Source of the DNA: a virus
Length of the DNA: 37,578 nucleotides
Strand: one strand, 5' to 3'
IMG/VR virus record: IMGVR_UViG_3300008451_000424
Location: 1-37,578 of that record
Shown here: piece by piece, positions 25,282-34,127 of the stretch
Layout: each line of letters starts with the position of its first letter
How positions within the stretch are numbered: position 1 is the stretch's first letter
Translations under genes and position numbers: made by a program
Notes under the pieces: generated by a model
Told to the model about the DNA's origin: nothing
Seen by the model: only the letters and a program-made list of their open reading frames with translations
The model's database searches: none

Positions 25282-26484
25282 TTAACCCCAGATACGGCAA
25301 GCCATTGCTGGACGAATCGCACTGTAGCCATAGAGAACGTCAATACGGCAAGGTAAACGGTCGTTATTGATGTCGTACTGACGTACAACACGCATAGAGA
25401 TACCGTTATGAACTTGACGTGAAGCCATGTCCACACCTTGTGGCAACAACAAGTCAGCGGTCGCAAAAGTGATCGCATCTTTGTGGTAAACCAAGTTTTG
25501 AGCGTACTGGCTAGCAGCGGAACCCAACATTGTTACAACAGCGTTAGCTTGTGGGAATGAGTTAACAGTCGCCAAAGCATTTGCTGAAGTGTAGATCGCT
25601 GGGCTAACTGCCAAAGTTGCAGTAGAAGAACCAGAAGTAGCAGCAGTTACAGTGAACTGTTGCAAGCTACCTGTTGACTCACGTGTTTGTGGGTTAACAG
25701 CGTAAACACCAGCGATTGTAAATACATCGCCTACGTTCCAAGTCTTGCTTGAACCAGTGAAGCTGATAGCAACAGAAGTAGCACCTTCAGTAGCAACAGT
25801 TGTAGTTACAGTGATAGTTGTACCCCAGTCACCCGTTGTGTGTTGCTTGATAGATTGGCTCATGTTGATTTCTTCAAAGCCCAATACACCCATACCCATC
25901 ATGCCATTCTTGAATTGACGGCTGATTGTGTCTGTAGGATTAAACAGGCCTTTCATGCCTTCAACCAAACCTGCGTTAGCTGCTGGGTTAACAGTAGCGT
26001 AACGTGGGGACATAACGGCAGCGTTTTCGTTCAACTTTTGTTGAGCTTGTAACAGCACCAATGAAGTAGAAGGAGTTGTGCCAGGTGTACCAACTGAGCT
26101 ATAGATAGACTTGTAGCTGTTTGCTACGTCTGCATCAATAGAAGAAGCCAACTGAGAGATACGTGGTTTCAAAACACGCTCTGCAAAGTCATCTAACTGC
26201 ATTGTCAATTCAGCAGAGGTGAAGTTAACACCAATGTGCTTTTGACTAGCAACAGACAAAGTTGTGTACTGTTCGTTGTCGTCTTGAACTTGCAAGGCGG
26301 CACCGTCAGTTACCAAAGCGCGGTCTGGTAGGCGGATACGGAGAGTAGAACCAATTTTTGCGCCTTCAACAGCGAAAGAATCGTCATACTGGCGGTTTAC
26401 GTTACGTGTTAGAACAAGATTATTCTCAAGGATCTCAAGAGCCTTGCGTGTAATCATGTCAATCGTTAAGATCGAGTTAGACAT
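25282..26484 (-). CDS. Major coat protein, P22 gp5-like
   Basis: 400 residues, HK97-fold coat protein of the P22 type (P22 gp5 has 430). The N-terminus (NSILTIDMITRKALEILENN, then LVLTRNVNRQYDDSFAVEGA) and the following IGSTLRIRLPDRALVTDGAA and YTTLSVASQKHIGVNFTSAE are the recognisable family pattern. An insertion-type region near 220-290 is Thr/Ser-rich (TVTTTVATEGATSVAISFTG), perhaps the I-domain-like addition. It follows the scaffold gene directly, and a strong terminator lies behind it. Confidence 0.95.
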   Translation of the reverse strand: MSNSILTIDMITRKALEILENNLVLTRNVNRQYDDSFAVEGAKIGSTLRIRLPDRALVTDGAALQVQDDNEQYTTLSVASQKHIGVNFTSAELTMQLDDFAERVLKPRISQLASSIDADVANSYKSIYSSVGTPGTTPSTSLVLLQAQQKLNENAAVMSPRYATVNPAANAGLVEGMKGLFNPTDTISRQFKNGMMGMGVLGFEEINMSQSIKQHTTGDWGTTITVTTTVATEGATSVAISFTGSSKTWNVGDVFTIAGVYAVNPQTRESTGSLQQFTVTAATSGSSTATLAVSPAIYTSANALATVNSFPQANAVVTMLGSAASQYAQNLVYHKDAITFATADLLLPQGVDMASRQVHNGISMRVVRQYDINNDRLPCRIDVLYGYSAIRPAMACRIWG

Positions 26485-28277: not shown

Positions 28278-29083
28278 TAGAAATTACCCCCGCCAATACT
28301 TGCAGAGTTATACCAATAGTTTCCGTCATACATTAATACTTGCCCGCTTGATGGTGTAGTTACTTGAACATCACCTTCAAATTGTCCTAAAGCACCGCCG
28401 AAAGTAGGACGCACAAATAAAGACCCAGCGCCTACGTTTGCAGCATTTATGACCGCGCAAACCTGAACTTTGGGGTTTGGTGCTGTTGGAGGATACTTAG
28501 TTAAACCGCCTGCGACGGTTGGATTTAAATAAAGAAGTTGTCCATCTACCCAGTTTTCAGCGCCGCCTCTTGTGTCAATATCTCTTACTAACCCAAAAGA
28601 AGTAATGTATCCAAAAGAATTAGTGGCTATGTCTTGAGTTGCAATTCCCATTACATAGAGTGAAGTTTCAGCCGTTAAACCTGTTGCTGGCGCCGCTTTT
28701 AATACGCCACTTCCACCTACAGTGCCAGTAAACATCACTACTTGGCCATTGGTAATATCAGCAGAAGCTCTTACTCTATAATATTGTTCTTCGCCAATTT
28801 GCTGAATTACATCGCCGCCGTCCATTATTAGGTTAAGTGTTTTGATACCGTTAGTAGAGTCCCAATACAAAGAACCAGCAGCCGTTGGTATAGTTTCAGG
28901 CGTCGTATCAAAAGTAACATAATCGGGGGTAGAAATACCGCCTGTAACACCAGTTAAGCTAGTAATATCACTATTTGCGCCTGAGCTAGCTACGTTTTCT
29001 AACGCATGATCTGCGTCCCAAGCAAGCGCGCCCGCGGCGCTAAACGTGCCGTCGGCGGGGGTAGTATGGGTGACTTTTGCCAT
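28277..29083 (-). CDS. Structural protein with C-terminal IGGGNF tag, 268 aa
   Basis: A beta-rich, low-charge virion-type protein. The N-terminus (KVTHTTPADGTFSAAGALAW, DADHAL) resembles tail-fibre or decoration shafts. The middle (QYYRVRASADITNGQVVMFT; LYVMGIATQDIATNSFGYIT; LVRDIDTRGGAENWVDGQLL) is a recurring fold in phage structural proteins. It ends DGN-x7-IGGGNF, exactly the ending of the 188-aa fibre-like protein at 21494-22060. It lies in the head block after portal, so a head fibre or decoration protein is plausible. Confidence 0.82.
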   Translation of the reverse strand: MAKVTHTTPADGTFSAAGALAWDADHALENVASSGANSDITSLTGVTGGISTPDYVTFDTTPETIPTAAGSLYWDSTNGIKTLNLIMDGGDVIQQIGEEQYYRVRASADITNGQVVMFTGTVGGSGVLKAAPATGLTAETSLYVMGIATQDIATNSFGYITSFGLVRDIDTRGGAENWVDGQLLYLNPTVAGGLTKYPPTAPNPKVQVCAVINAANVGAGSLFVRPTFGGALGQFEGDVQVTTPSSGQVLMYDGNYWYNSASIGGGNF

Positions 29084-29445
29084 TATGCTAAGAAGCGTAA
29101 TTTATACAAGGTGGATAGATATAGCTCAATAATGCCGTCAATTAGGTTTTGCATAGGAGTGTCGTCCTTGTCGCAAACATCGTAACGCACCTTTTCAATC
29201 TCAGCAAGCTGTGATTCAAGAAATTCAATAATGTTAGCTGTTTTCTTGGCGGACATTAAGCTAATTGGGCCAATCAGACCATGACGACCTTGATATGCTT
29301 CGGCAAATGAGTCAGCTAGATCAATAATGTTCTCGTAAAACTTCTGCAAAGCTTTATGTTTTGAGTAGCTACGAGTATTGAGATGAACCGAATGGGTTAC
29401 ATCACGAGCTAGGAAAAATAATCCTACAAAATCGGCTGCTTTCAT
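29083..29445 (-). CDS. Helical phage protein, 120 aa (DUF5856-like)
   Basis: An all-helical protein beginning MKAADFVGLFFLARDVTHSV, followed by HLNTRSYSKHKALQKFYENI. Acidic and His residues are spaced along helices, as in ferritin-like bundles (ENIIDLADSFAEAYQGRHGL; LESQLAEIEKVRYDVCDKDD). It recalls DUF5856, a family of phage proteins with a Dps/ferritin-like bundle and unknown function. It lies just after portal, with four-base and one-base overlaps. Whether it binds metal cannot be read from sequence alone. Confidence 0.78.
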   Translation of the reverse strand: MKAADFVGLFFLARDVTHSVHLNTRSYSKHKALQKFYENIIDLADSFAEAYQGRHGLIGPISLMSAKKTANIIEFLESQLAEIEKVRYDVCDKDDTPMQNLIDGIIELYLSTLYKLRFLA

Positions 29446-31697
29446 TGTGGCATCCCTTCAGGTGGCATTTGCTCAGGAGGCATACCTTGAGGCGGCATTG
29501 GTTGGCCTTGTGGCTGCTCCATTTGCTGTTCTCTTTGTTCTTCTTCCTGCATATCCATCGCAGTATCGCGTTGCATTTCGTTTACTAAGTCGCCGTTTGT
29601 CATCATGCCATGTACGGTACCCAACACAATGTCTTGGATCTGTTCAGGTGACATAGACGCTTGAACCGCAGCCAAACGCTTGGTTTCAGCATCAAATAGC
29701 TTGATTTGGGCTTCAAAATCTTTACGTTCCAAGTCTTGCATTTCAATGGATTTACCCACGTTAGCAAGCATCTGGTGCATACCTTCCATTTCTTGAGCCA
29801 TTGCTTGCATTTGTTGTTCAGCAGCTTGCAATGCAGGGTCTTTATCACCTGTTTCAAGAATCTTAGGATCAATCGTTTTAGCCAAACGCTTAGACATCTC
29901 TTGGGCGCCAGGCCAATCCATATTTTTAACAAACAAGTCGCCAGCCACTTTCCACAACTCAGGATTACCTTGAAGGATCTGAGCCATAGCTTCCATCGCT
30001 TCTTGACGTTTGGTCATGTAGCCTGGGCCAGTAGTAGCAACCACATCGTAGATACCAACGCTAGGGTTGTAGACTTTTTCAATCACAATACCTTGCTGAT
30101 CTACAATTTTCTTAACTGGTTCAGGTTGGTCAGGGTTTAGCTTAACCATTGACACTTCACCATCTACACCTACGATGCGAGCAATACGCGCAGTGTCGTA
30201 AATCTTAGGAATCAGGTCGATTAATTGACGAGTTGCAAAGCGAATCGCTTTAGTCAGGTTGTCGCCGTAGTGGAATGTACCCACATCGCCCTGGCGTTCG
30301 CGGGCAAGAATAGCTTTCCCCGAGCGTTCGTTGCTTGTGGCACCTAAGCTCGAGTCATACTGTCCAGTAGTGGACTTGATATCGTCGGACGCGCCCATTT
30401 TGGCTTGGATAAGACCAGTTTGTGCCAAAGGAGGGGGAGCGCGTTGTGGAAGTGGCAATGTTGCGCCCATTCCATCTGTAACATCAGGATTAACTTCCAA
30501 ATACGGCCAATTGGTCGTGTTTGCAGTTTTCCATTGCTGTTCGTAGCCTTCAAATTGACCGCCGTAACCAATAAACGGTGCTTTTGGAGCCAATGCAAGC
30601 ATCTCAGCTTCTTGAGATACCCAGTAGTTGTACATACGTTGCGCATCTTTGGCATTTCTTACCAAACCTGACACATAAATACGGCCATCTACTTCAAATT
30701 CGTTGCCGATTACACGGATCACAGGGATCCATTTGCCAGCCCATTCTTGTTCTTGTAGCACTTCATAGCCGTTGGACTTCATCCACATGACTTTTTTGAC
30801 GTCTACAGTGCGAGTCTTAATGGGTTTTAAGCCCATTTCTTTCATATTTTTATCTTCAGGGCTGCCATCGTAGAACGATTGGTTGCCTGGGTACAAATTT
30901 AGTTTAGTTGGGATATGTTTGTAGTAAAAATACTCAACAATACGAATTGTGTTCTCGTCGATCCACTGAGATAAGGACGCATCGCCTACACCTTGGGACA
31001 TGATTGACGTAATCGGTGCTGCGTCAGGGTATTGACGCTCGTATTCTTCTTTTTCTAAGTCTTGGCTAATGAAACACCATTCAGCGTCTTGCCCCGCGGG
31101 GTCTTGGATCATCGGATCCATGTAAACGCTGAACGCGTTACGAATACGGCCTAGACGGATGTCTTGATCGAATGAATCATCGTAGCAAAACTCGGTCAGA
31201 ATACGGAAATAGCCTTCGCCGTAGGTCACTTGGTTTTCGCAAGCGGTGTCATACACCACATCGGCGTCAGACATATACTCGATATGGCGAACCATACCTT
31301 CAAAAATCTCTGCTACTTCAACGTCGCCTTTGTCATCCGCAGGAATTACTTTTCCAGAGGGTCGGTTCTGACGTTGTTCGTTAGTAACCTGTTTGACGTG
31401 CTGAGGTAGTTTGTTAATAGTAAGGCAAGGTCTTGCGTTGATGGTCTGCCCTTGAACAGATCCGCGAGTTGCCAATACGTCAGCAGGCCACTGCCATTGG
31501 TTGTCCGGAGATCCAGCCATAAACCTTAAATCGTCAAGCTCGTCCTCACGGGACTCAGAGTAAGCAGACATCGCCATTTGGAAACGATGGCGCATGGTGG
31601 CAAGGGCGTCTGACTTATCTTCAGGCGTAGTAGTAGGGTTGCCCCCTACGTCGGCTACTTTGCCAACGATATTCATTGATGACTGGTCATAGCCCAT
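29442..31697 (-). CDS. Portal protein, P22 gp1-like
   Basis: 751 residues (P22 gp1 has 725). The N-terminal body shows DELDDLRFMAGSPDNQWQWP, and NEQRQNRPSGKVIPADDKGD with AEIFEGMVRHIEYMSDADVV, classic features of P22-type portals. ATSNERSGKAILARERQGDV (about 455) is the conserved core. The C-terminal 150 residues are helical and very Gln/Met/Pro-rich (barrel-like tail, MQEEEQREQQMEQPQG). It forms the dodecameric ring at the packaging vertex. It lies after the HNH gene, overlapping it by 11 bases. Confidence 0.95.
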   Translation of the reverse strand: MGYDQSSMNIVGKVADVGGNPTTTPEDKSDALATMRHRFQMAMSAYSESREDELDDLRFMAGSPDNQWQWPADVLATRGSVQGQTINARPCLTINKLPQHVKQVTNEQRQNRPSGKVIPADDKGDVEVAEIFEGMVRHIEYMSDADVVYDTACENQVTYGEGYFRILTEFCYDDSFDQDIRLGRIRNAFSVYMDPMIQDPAGQDAEWCFISQDLEKEEYERQYPDAAPITSIMSQGVGDASLSQWIDENTIRIVEYFYYKHIPTKLNLYPGNQSFYDGSPEDKNMKEMGLKPIKTRTVDVKKVMWMKSNGYEVLQEQEWAGKWIPVIRVIGNEFEVDGRIYVSGLVRNAKDAQRMYNYWVSQEAEMLALAPKAPFIGYGGQFEGYEQQWKTANTTNWPYLEVNPDVTDGMGATLPLPQRAPPPLAQTGLIQAKMGASDDIKSTTGQYDSSLGATSNERSGKAILARERQGDVGTFHYGDNLTKAIRFATRQLIDLIPKIYDTARIARIVGVDGEVSMVKLNPDQPEPVKKIVDQQGIVIEKVYNPSVGIYDVVATTGPGYMTKRQEAMEAMAQILQGNPELWKVAGDLFVKNMDWPGAQEMSKRLAKTIDPKILETGDKDPALQAAEQQMQAMAQEMEGMHQMLANVGKSIEMQDLERKDFEAQIKLFDAETKRLAAVQASMSPEQIQDIVLGTVHGMMTNGDLVNEMQRDTAMDMQEEEQREQQMEQPQGQPMPPQGMPPEQMPPEGMPQ

Positions 31698-32190
31698 AGC
31701 TGTTATTCTTTCTTACGTTGTCTACACCTGGTATAGCCTGTAAATTCGATGGAACGTGTAATCCAGACACATATTTTCCGCGTAATGGAATTATATGGTC
31801 AACGTGCCAAGTTGTCCCAGTTATTTTAGACTGTAGTGTAGCAAGTTTGTAAACATTTGCAATTCTTTCGCGGTCTATGTCAGTTAACCAAGTAGGTGTT
31901 CTTTTAGCTTCACGATAGTTTGTTGTCCATAAATTGCGTTTTGCACGGTTATTTTTTATGTACTTGCGTGTGTGTAAATACGATTTTTCAAGATTGCTTT
32001 GCCGCCATTTTTTGTTTTCTTCATAAACTTTTAGTGGGTTTTTAGCTTTAGTTCGTTTTGCGGCGGTGTTCCCGCACGCGCAACACGTTTTATTGCCTGT
32101 ATAGCGCTCTGCTATATGCCCGTGTTTACAAGGTTTTCCGGTGAAATACCGCGTTAAACCTTGTAAAAGCGCGTTTTTGCGTGCGATCAA
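31687..32190 (-). CDS. HNH endonuclease (free-standing), 167 aa, TTG start
   Basis: The C-terminal motif WHVDHIIPLRGK with GLHVPSNLQAIP gives the His-Me finger (H132, H145, N149). The N-terminus has a zinc-type cluster (GKPCKHGHIAERY; KTCCACG). The middle is basic (AAKRTKAKNPLKVYEENKKW). No Met codon exists in the whole frame. The TTG at 32190 overlaps the GroES stop and has GGA eight bases upstream, so it is the likely start. It is wedged between GroES and portal genes with overlaps on both sides. Probably a homing-type or packaging-associated endonuclease. Confidence 0.88.
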   Translation of the reverse strand: MIARKNALLQGLTRYFTGKPCKHGHIAERYTGNKTCCACGNTAAKRTKAKNPLKVYEENKKWRQSNLEKSYLHTRKYIKNNRAKRNLWTTNYREAKRTPTWLTDIDRERIANVYKLATLQSKITGTTWHVDHIIPLRGKYVSGLHVPSNLQAIPGVDNVRKNNSYGL

Positions 32191-32456
32191 TCTAATATTC
32201 CAATAATGTCAGTAGACCGCATCATCAAATAATCTTTATTCTCATAAACGACTTTTTGACCGCTATGCTCACCAAATAATACGTGGTCGCCGACCGCTAC
32301 ATCCATTGGCTCTAAGCCGCCTTTTGGTAGTTTTTTACCCTCGCCAGCGGCGACAATAACGCCGCTAAACAGCTTGTCTTTTGGTAAAACAATTAAGTCG
32401 GATAGCTTCTCGTAATCTTGCTCAATTAGCACACAGTTATTTAAAGGACGCATCAT
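32187..32456 (-). CDS. GroES-like co-chaperonin
   Basis: An 89-residue cpn10 homologue (bacterial GroES is about 97). It begins MMRPLNNCVLIEQ, the usual first strand, followed by a mobile loop-like stretch (EKLSDLIVLPKDKL, about 16-29) whose LIVLP resembles the GroEL-binding tripeptide region. SGVIVAAGEGKKLPKGGLEP, VAVGDHVLFGEHSG and the end DYLMMRSTDIIGILD are strongly conserved cpn10 features. It could replace host GroES to help GroEL fold the phage coat, as T4 gp31 does. It overlaps neighbours by four bases on each side in the head operon. Confidence 0.92.
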   Translation of the reverse strand: MMRPLNNCVLIEQDYEKLSDLIVLPKDKLFSGVIVAAGEGKKLPKGGLEPMDVAVGDHVLFGEHSGQKVVYENKDYLMMRSTDIIGILD

Positions 32457-32596
32457 TTTTTGCTTTTACCCTTTGCGGCTTCTCTTTTAACGGCGTATGC
32501 AATAGCTACACTTTGTTTAATTGGTTTGCCACTTTTGACCTCGGCGGCCACGTTCTTACGGAACGCTTCTTTACTGGTTGATTTTTTGAGTGGCAT
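32453..32596 (-). CDS. Small basic protein between terminase and GroES, 47 aa
   Basis: The start ATG at 32596 immediately follows the large terminase stop (one base apart). It encodes MPLKKSTSKEAFRKNVAAEV, then KSGKPIKQSVAIAYAVKREA and KGKSKK. Very Lys-rich and helical, of a type common in phages beside terminase genes and without known function. The longer frame upstream lies inside terminase and has no better start. A DNA- or terminase-binding role is only inference from charge and position. Confidence 0.78.
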   Translation of the reverse strand: MPLKKSTSKEAFRKNVAAEVKSGKPIKQSVAIAYAVKREAAKGKSKK

Positions 32597-32597
32597 T

Positions 32598-34127
32598 TTA
32601 TGATCCCATCCATGAGTTAAAGGCAGCGCCTTGTGATTGGTACGATGATTTACGGATTGTAGTACGACTTTCCCGATGTGCAACAGGAAACGCAAAGGTC
32701 AGCGCAATAGCGTCTGCCGAGTCAGGTGACGCCAAACCCCGCGCCTTCATGTCTTTCTTGCTTTCCAAGAAGATTGCACCCTTAGAGTCAGGCTTCATCA
32801 GTGGTGAGATGAGGTCAGTCTTGAGCGTCTTGCTTGGCGGCACACTAGCATTTTTAAGCCATTCTTTCATTGATCCCCATATCTGGGCGCGTAAGTTGCC
32901 GTACATCATGGGGTTGCGTGACTTGTTTGCAAAGTTCACACCCCTAATCTTGTAGCGTTGTTCCTTGAGGCGGTCAACCACCCCCGCGCCAAGACCACCC
33001 TCGTCGATGGCTACTACCGCTGGGTTGTACTGGTCGATCGCTTCGATGACATGACCGACTACCGTCATGGTGTCATCACCTTTGAACTTACGAAGTTCCA
33101 CGATATCTCTGCCTTGCCGGATGGCGATAACTGTCGAGTCACTACCAAAGCGGGCTGGATCAACGCCGATGACGATGGGCGCGGAGTCATCTTGCCATTT
33201 CTCCCGTTTCATAGCGTCGTCAACTAGGGATGATGGGATGAACTGATCGTCGCCTTCTGAGGGGAACGAACCGTACACCTCAACGTGCGCCTGGTACGAA
33301 TCAGCGCCGTATTCTTCAATAATCTGGTTGTATACGTTCTTGTCGGTGCCTTCGACATCTCTAGCGTCAACTTGCCGAGATTGCCAAAAGTCACGCTTGC
33401 TACCCTCGATCGCTTCATAGAAATAGCCTGTATTGCGACGCGGATTGGAGAAACAACACCAAAAACGGTTGGGCGTGTTTTCAGTAAAGAAGCCTGATGT
33501 CACCGCCCAGATAGAGTCGTCAATACCTGACGCCTCGTCAAACACGACCATTACCCCATCGTAGTTATGCACACCGGCGAACGCGTCGGGATTCTCAGCC
33601 GACCACAGTCTGCCTTCCAAGTTCCAATAGCGTGTGCCTTTCTTCAGATCACGCTCGACCAACTCGGTCAGCCATTTGGCGGGCATCACGCGAGTTGCGC
33701 TGATCTCCCACCAGTGGGTGTTGATCGACATGGACGACCACTTAGTAATCTCAGCCCAAGTCACTGAGCGTAGCTGTGATTCGCTGTTAGCAGACACGAT
33801 GACTGTCGAGCCGATGCGGGTTGTCATCATCCATAGCACTAACCAAGACACTAACGCCGACTTGCCAATACCACGACCAGAGGCAATGGCTAGGCGCAGT
33901 ACGTCAAAGTCAACCTTGCCGTTGTTGCTTGCGATGTGGGTTGCTAAGTCTTGTAGTACCTGGCGTTGCCATTTGCGTGGGCCAGCGAAATGTTCAAGTG
34001 GCGTACCCTGTTGCCCCCAAGGGAAGGCAAACATCACAAACGCTAGCGGATTGTCTTTGATGGCTGGTGACCATAACCGCGCCATGAGTTCTTGTTCATC
34101 TTGCGCGGAGTAGCGGGTAGTTTGCAT
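32598..34127 (-). CDS. terL: Terminase large subunit (TerL)
   Basis: 509 residues (P22 gp2 has 499). The ATPase half has Walker A ASGRGIGKS (82-90), Walker B VVFDEAS (194-200) and SNPRRNTGYF (coupling region, about 227-236). The nuclease half has RNase H-like acidic residues GVDPARFGSD (D323), VVAIDEGGLG (D375) and DSADAIAL (near 469-476). It cuts the concatemer and pumps DNA through the portal. The start overlaps the small subunit stop (TAATG). A circular assembly with P22-type virion genes fits headful packaging. Confidence 0.96.
   Translation of the reverse strand: MQTTRYSAQDEQELMARLWSPAIKDNPLAFVMFAFPWGQQGTPLEHFAGPRKWQRQVLQDLATHIASNNGKVDFDVLRLAIASGRGIGKSALVSWLVLWMMTTRIGSTVIVSANSESQLRSVTWAEITKWSSMSINTHWWEISATRVMPAKWLTELVERDLKKGTRYWNLEGRLWSAENPDAFAGVHNYDGVMVVFDEASGIDDSIWAVTSGFFTENTPNRFWCCFSNPRRNTGYFYEAIEGSKRDFWQSRQVDARDVEGTDKNVYNQIIEEYGADSYQAHVEVYGSFPSEGDDQFIPSSLVDDAMKREKWQDDSAPIVIGVDPARFGSDSTVIAIRQGRDIVELRKFKGDDTMTVVGHVIEAIDQYNPAVVAIDEGGLGAGVVDRLKEQRYKIRGVNFANKSRNPMMYGNLRAQIWGSMKEWLKNASVPPSKTLKTDLISPLMKPDSKGAIFLESKKDMKARGLASPDSADAIALTFAFPVAHRESRTTIRKSSYQSQGAAFNSWMGS

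Follow-up and report, generated by a model that had tools for sequence, protein, structure and literature searches.

A GroES-type co-chaperonin gene with a shortened mobile loop in the terminase-portal slot of a P22-like phage

Why would a phage carry a gene for the co-chaperonin GroES without one for its partner GroEL? The question is raised by virus record IMGVR_UViG_3300008451_000424, all 37,578 bases of which were analyzed and are referred to here as the window. The window contains one Cpn10 gene, and a search of its 37,578 bases for Cpn60, in a record that may be incomplete, found none, in agreement with a preliminary description of the locus. That description proposed that the gene product replaces the host GroES on the host GroEL ring, perhaps to fold a coat protein with an enlarged insertion domain. 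Our analysis retains action on the host GroEL as the likeliest role, in which the phage protein may replace or only supplement host GroES, and contradicts the coat motive. We assign a probability of about 0.72 to the reading that the phage GroES caps the host's own GroEL and thereby secures folding capacity for at least one virion protein late in infection.

The gene lies between the terminase and portal genes, as the preliminary description stated (Table 1), within a P22-like head module in the order TerL, small basic gene, GroES, HNH/endonuclease VII-like ORF, P22 portal, scaffold, and P22-type coat. The overlaps of the GroES start and stop with its two neighbors suggest, from the arrangement of the reading frames, that GroES is co-translated with head and packaging genes. 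The HNH/endonuclease VII-like ORF is likely a mobile endonuclease gene. A protein of the DUF5856/phrog_858 type (29083-29445) is encoded directly after the portal gene and is conserved in nearly all relatives seen.

Table 1. Positions of the GroES gene, its parts, and neighboring genes in the window
Feature	Coordinates	Strand	Remarks
GroES/Cpn10 co-chaperonin gene, 89 aa	32187..32456	-	Profile matches, predicted fold; alternative ATG one codon in
Mobile loop, codons 14-28, hydrophobic tripeptide IVL then P	32373..32417	-	Shortened relative to E. coli
Roof hairpin, codons 41-49	32310..32336	-	Kept in window GroES; missing in T4 gp31 and DSL-LC05
Small basic protein, phrog_2423	32453..32596	-	Stop overlaps GroES start as ATGA; part scanned, 32453-32587
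HNH/endonuclease VII-like ORF	31687..32190	-	TTG start overlaps GroES stop; missing from most relatives
P22-type portal protein	29442..31697	-	Profile matches
Terminase large subunit (TerL)	32598..34127	-	Profile matches
P22-type coat protein (400 aa), a possible GroES client	25282..26484	-	

The identity of the gene product is supported by both profiles and predicted structure. The ORF matched Pfam Cpn10 (PF00166; E 5.9e-17, 61.9 bits, above the cut-off of 21.1) and PHROG 3188, 'co-chaperonin GroES' (E 2.9e-15), and 17 solved Cpn10-type sequences matched it at E <= 0.01, the nearest by sequence being bacterial and mitochondrial Cpn10s. It scored below the cut-off of every NCBIfam model for cellular GroES (best 61.8 bits versus cut-offs of 96 to 215). 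By these scores the window GroES is a divergent relative outside the named cellular GroES groups. An AlphaFold2 monomer prediction built on 33 family members had a pLDDT of 85.8, with low values only in the mobile loop (73 and 68 for residue blocks 11-20 and 21-30), and the predicted structure has the GroES beta-barrel fold. Foldseek and VIA-align both grouped the model with Cpn10s, with VIA-align Z scores of 14.2 for Thermus thermophilus Cpn10, 13.6 for Xanthomonas GroES (rmsd 1.1 A across 75 residues), 12.0 for E. coli GroES, and 8.9 for T4 gp31. Among predicted viral structures there were 58 matches at E <= 0.001, of which many are labelled GroES and derive from uncultured phages. The roof hairpin is present in the window GroES and is lost in locus L094 as well as in DSL-LC05. 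Given the predicted fold, together with the purifying selection and the syntenic relatives reported below, the ORF encodes a real, selected, accessory phage co-chaperonin that is ordinary in kind.

The least ordinary part is the mobile loop. The preliminary description referred to a full-length Cpn10 whose LIVLP loop motif differs from the usual GIVL. The protein is a genuine Cpn10, but its loop segment, measured between the positions equivalent to E. coli residues 14 and 38, has 18 residues (codons 14-31), five fewer than that of E. coli GroES. The difference between LIVLP and GIVL was overstated and is minor because the IVL-P core is kept; similar hydrophobic residues occupy the tripeptide columns in 34 phage rows. 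The segment has 18 residues in 28 of the 34 distinct phage family members, 19 in three, 21 in one, and 22 in two. In bacterial GroES it has 23 residues in 38 of 39 sequences and 22 in the other, in a sample of 38 loci plus E. coli that is biased toward the best-scoring matches. As a check on that bias, 72 full-length GroES matches in 60 genomes were found to span 273-285 bases; the same span was 258 bases in nine of ten phage records and 228 in DSL-LC05. In GroES of eight other phages the segment has 21, 22, 23 (five of them), or 29 residues. The family has lost about two residues before the tripeptide and about three after it, and in the samples examined this shortening marks the window GroES family. 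Loop length varies within the wider Cpn10 family, and the loop is the region of lowest pLDDT in the window GroES.

Because the window loop is shorter than that of any of the 39 bacterial GroES, capping of GroEL is not guaranteed. The length of a co-chaperonin loop is linked to GroEL affinity. It is also linked to chamber size, as in gp31 (PMC6318259). With its short loop, the window GroES may alter how tall the folding chamber is, or it may tighten its grip on GroEL through a lower ordering cost on binding. A speculative extension, which we regard as rather unlikely, is that the short-loop family is a mirror image of gp31: where gp31 enlarges the chamber for a big coat protein, these lids would sit lower or bind more tightly, would give the phage an advantage over host GroES in competition for GroEL, and would be passed between phages as a cassette occupying the slot between terminase and portal. 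Among the listings from our open-access literature searches, which leave most subscription papers outside coverage, no shortened phage co-chaperonin loop appeared.

An enlarged insertion domain in the coat protein is not the reason for the GroES gene, because the window coat is smaller than that of P22 (400 versus 430 aa for gp5) and relatives have coats of the same size with or without GroES. The insertion-domain region has 102 residues versus 123 in P22 gp5, whose domain borders we take to be 223-345. Complete coats were 399-404 aa both in 15 loci with GroES and in ten without it; a rank test (p 0.012) on these related rows found the GroES-bearing coats shorter, by about 2-4 residues. The proposed motive was thus ruled out both against P22 gp5 and across relatives. 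Furthermore, the loop of the window GroES is shorter than normal, whereas the loop is longer in T4 gp31, whose client is a large coat protein. The coat may nevertheless be a client, because a coat of about 400 aa would fit the normal GroEL-GroES chamber. Among the 19 usable loci listed (10 with GroES), no client gene co-occurring with GroES was picked downstream of the portal gene. Nominal client associations, the best with p 0.003 among those listed, were dropped because they reflected only two independent pairs.

The use of host GroEL is supported by the distribution of Cpn60. A Cpn60 gene was found in none of 21 related records searched whole, ten of which have Cpn10, compared with 14 of 14 control genomes in the same search. 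The search also works on virus records, as it detected Cpn60 in the 68.5-kb virus record behind locus L025, a single record in which a GroES-like gene and a Cpn60 gene occur together. The absence of Cpn60 from all 21 records, together with the conserved fold and hydrophobic tripeptide, makes action on host GroEL the likeliest role.

GroES itself is distributed unevenly. A single-protein scan yielded 24 related loci, and a portal scan contributed the best 80 of 599. GroES was scored as present in 45 of 110 portal-bearing loci, absent in 54, and unscorable in 11. Four loci on the same record as another locus (L001, L043, L045, and L048) were excluded from the count, as were L025, L103, L108, L109, and loci in which the portal ORF was missing or shorter than 450 aa, including the GroES-bearing L008, L009, L022, and L023. 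Absence means that no ORF of at least 30-40 codons matched the GroES profile, a definition that could overlook a strongly diverged GroES. In all 45 GroES-scored loci the gene is directly upstream of the portal gene on the same strand, with a gap the size of the HNH ORF in four; a gene similar to that ORF occupies an ORF-sized gap in L029, L032, and L083, and the other scored GroES-bearing loci are without it. On a portal tree from a quick search, GroES presence requires nine changes, eight of them forced by starred branches. The gene is therefore accessory in this phage family, with at least eight changes on the portal tree. In 11 records of phages without GroES in the slot, searched whole and including one 28-kb fragment, no Cpn10 was found elsewhere. 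These records, and the 54 of 99 scored relatives without the gene, indicate that this virion type does not need GroES in every host.

A beta-rich protein matching phrog_18251 was present in 23 of the 54 GroES-less loci and one of the 45 GroES-bearing loci. It occupies the TerL-portal slot in many GroES-less relatives (L087:921-1397 and similar) and follows the coat gene in some others. As a candidate substitute for GroES it was rejected, as tree-based pairs gave a median p of 0.5 and a similar N-terminus follows the coat gene in the GroES-bearing L029.

The window GroES has diverged from its closest relatives far more than its neighbors have. In comparisons with ten sister loci, the window portal shows 88-94% identity and TerL 89-94%, but the window GroES only 66-72%; identity among the sister loci themselves has a median of 91% for GroES and 89% for the portal. 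The window version of GroES was also found in L009 (98% over 64 aa) and in L024 (91% over 33 aa), and L024 also has the endonuclease ORF. Because the flanking TerL and portal genes remain about 90% identical, the likeliest reading of these comparisons is that the window allele was replaced by recombination, perhaps linked to the adjoining endonuclease. Repeated gain or loss combined with allele exchange is a pattern of arms-race genes, and no client association was found, as might be expected if the main effect of GroEL binding were to redirect or retune the chaperonin, so that host clients are excluded or a host response is dampened, and not to fold phage proteins. However, we consider this improbable because selection on GroES is strongly purifying and not diversifying (median dN/dS 0.12; of 561 pairs computed, 202 were usable and none of these exceeded 1, the others having dS outside 0.05-2 or no nonsynonymous change), the gene always occupies the same place among the head and packaging genes of the operon, and the roof and tripeptide are retained.

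The many relatives without GroES, and the presence of an HNH endonuclease ORF in the same slot, would also suit a passenger gene that is dispensable, has no specific client, and helps the phage only in certain hosts or at certain temperatures. There is little likelihood of this, because the same median dN/dS of 0.12 speaks against dispensability and GroES occurs in well-separated portal lineages. A tree of GroES sequences, based on only 96 columns and with the GroES of other phages left out, separated the 34 phage sequences from 39 bacterial sequences by one branch (98/92). Least probable is a virion-assembly or structural factor in which the Cpn10 fold no longer works with GroEL and instead forms a ring at the portal: GroES adjoins the portal gene in loci that have it, its loop is shortened, and one of the two GroES genes of phage CBB abuts a virion structural gene, but retention of IVL-P would be surprising in a loop freed from GroEL use.

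In the preferred reading, capping of host GroEL by the phage protein, GroES would probably be made together with packaging and head proteins, would form a GroES-type ring, and would use its IVL(P) mobile loop to cap host GroEL. This would secure for the phage the GroEL capacity to fold at least one virion protein during the late phase of infection. We infer the heptameric state, GroEL binding, late expression, and client of the window GroES.

The host is likely a proteobacterium. Portal relatives were found in metagenome-assembled genome (MAG) contigs labelled Betaproteobacteria, Burkholderiales, Rhodoferax, Methylococcaceae, and Lysobacteraceae; a long Rhizorhabdus histidinilytica contig also carries one. 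Two contigs labelled Bathyarchaeota, which matched at 39-42%, are probably mis-binned. GroES was present in one of 14 such host-labelled loci, in a Rhodoferax MAG. In the 769-kb R. histidinilytica contig (L116), the portal, scaffold, and coat genes of the family appear to belong to a provirus; phage-type GroES was not found in the stretch examined.

That some phages encode GroES alone and rely on the host's GroEL is established, T4 gp31 being the model case; a marine virus survey is cited in this connection (PMC7185714). In HTVC023P-type pelagiphages, GroES belongs to the core genome (PMC9599517). Pectobacterium phage CBB, a jumbo phage, has two separate GroES genes (L170 and L171), one of them beside a virion structural gene. 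A close counterpart in arrangement is phage DSL-LC05 (OR003940), whose genome is also 37.6 kb long, with the GroES gene immediately upstream of that for the portal and the same short loop, but its GroES is 34% identical to that of the window and has lost the roof hairpin. Its record already annotates a co-chaperonin GroES, and a search for GroES terms in the main text of the corresponding paper found no mention (PMC10611076). Xanthomonas phage PBR31 (MT119766), a phage with a named bacterial host and the only one that can be grown among those seen here with GroES beside a P22-like module, likewise encodes a portal of P22-like type and a GroES close to the terminase and portal genes, and has no Cpn60 in its record. 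It differs in having a GroES gene that lies before TerL and a loop segment of 29 residues; a search of the main text of the corresponding paper for the same terms found no mention of GroES (PMC10975493).

Compared with bacterial GroES (PF00166), the window protein has the same fold, roof hairpin, and hydrophobic loop tripeptide, but its loop segment is 18 residues rather than the 22-23 seen in all 39 bacterial sequences. Like T4 gp31 it is phage encoded and has the same fold at a distance, and we infer that it shares the partnership with host GroEL. The gp31 loop has 22 residues versus 16 in GroES, the chamber is about 8% larger, and there is no roof (PMC6318259). The window GroES has neither the long loop nor the missing roof of gp31, as its loop is shorter than that of GroES and its roof is present. 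Gp31 is the long-loop model, and one phage family here offers a natural loop series of 18, 19, 21, and 22 residues. This series and the close relatives without the gene provide a ready comparison for the role of the loop and for what a phage gains from its own GroES, and the family-specific short loop merits a bench test.
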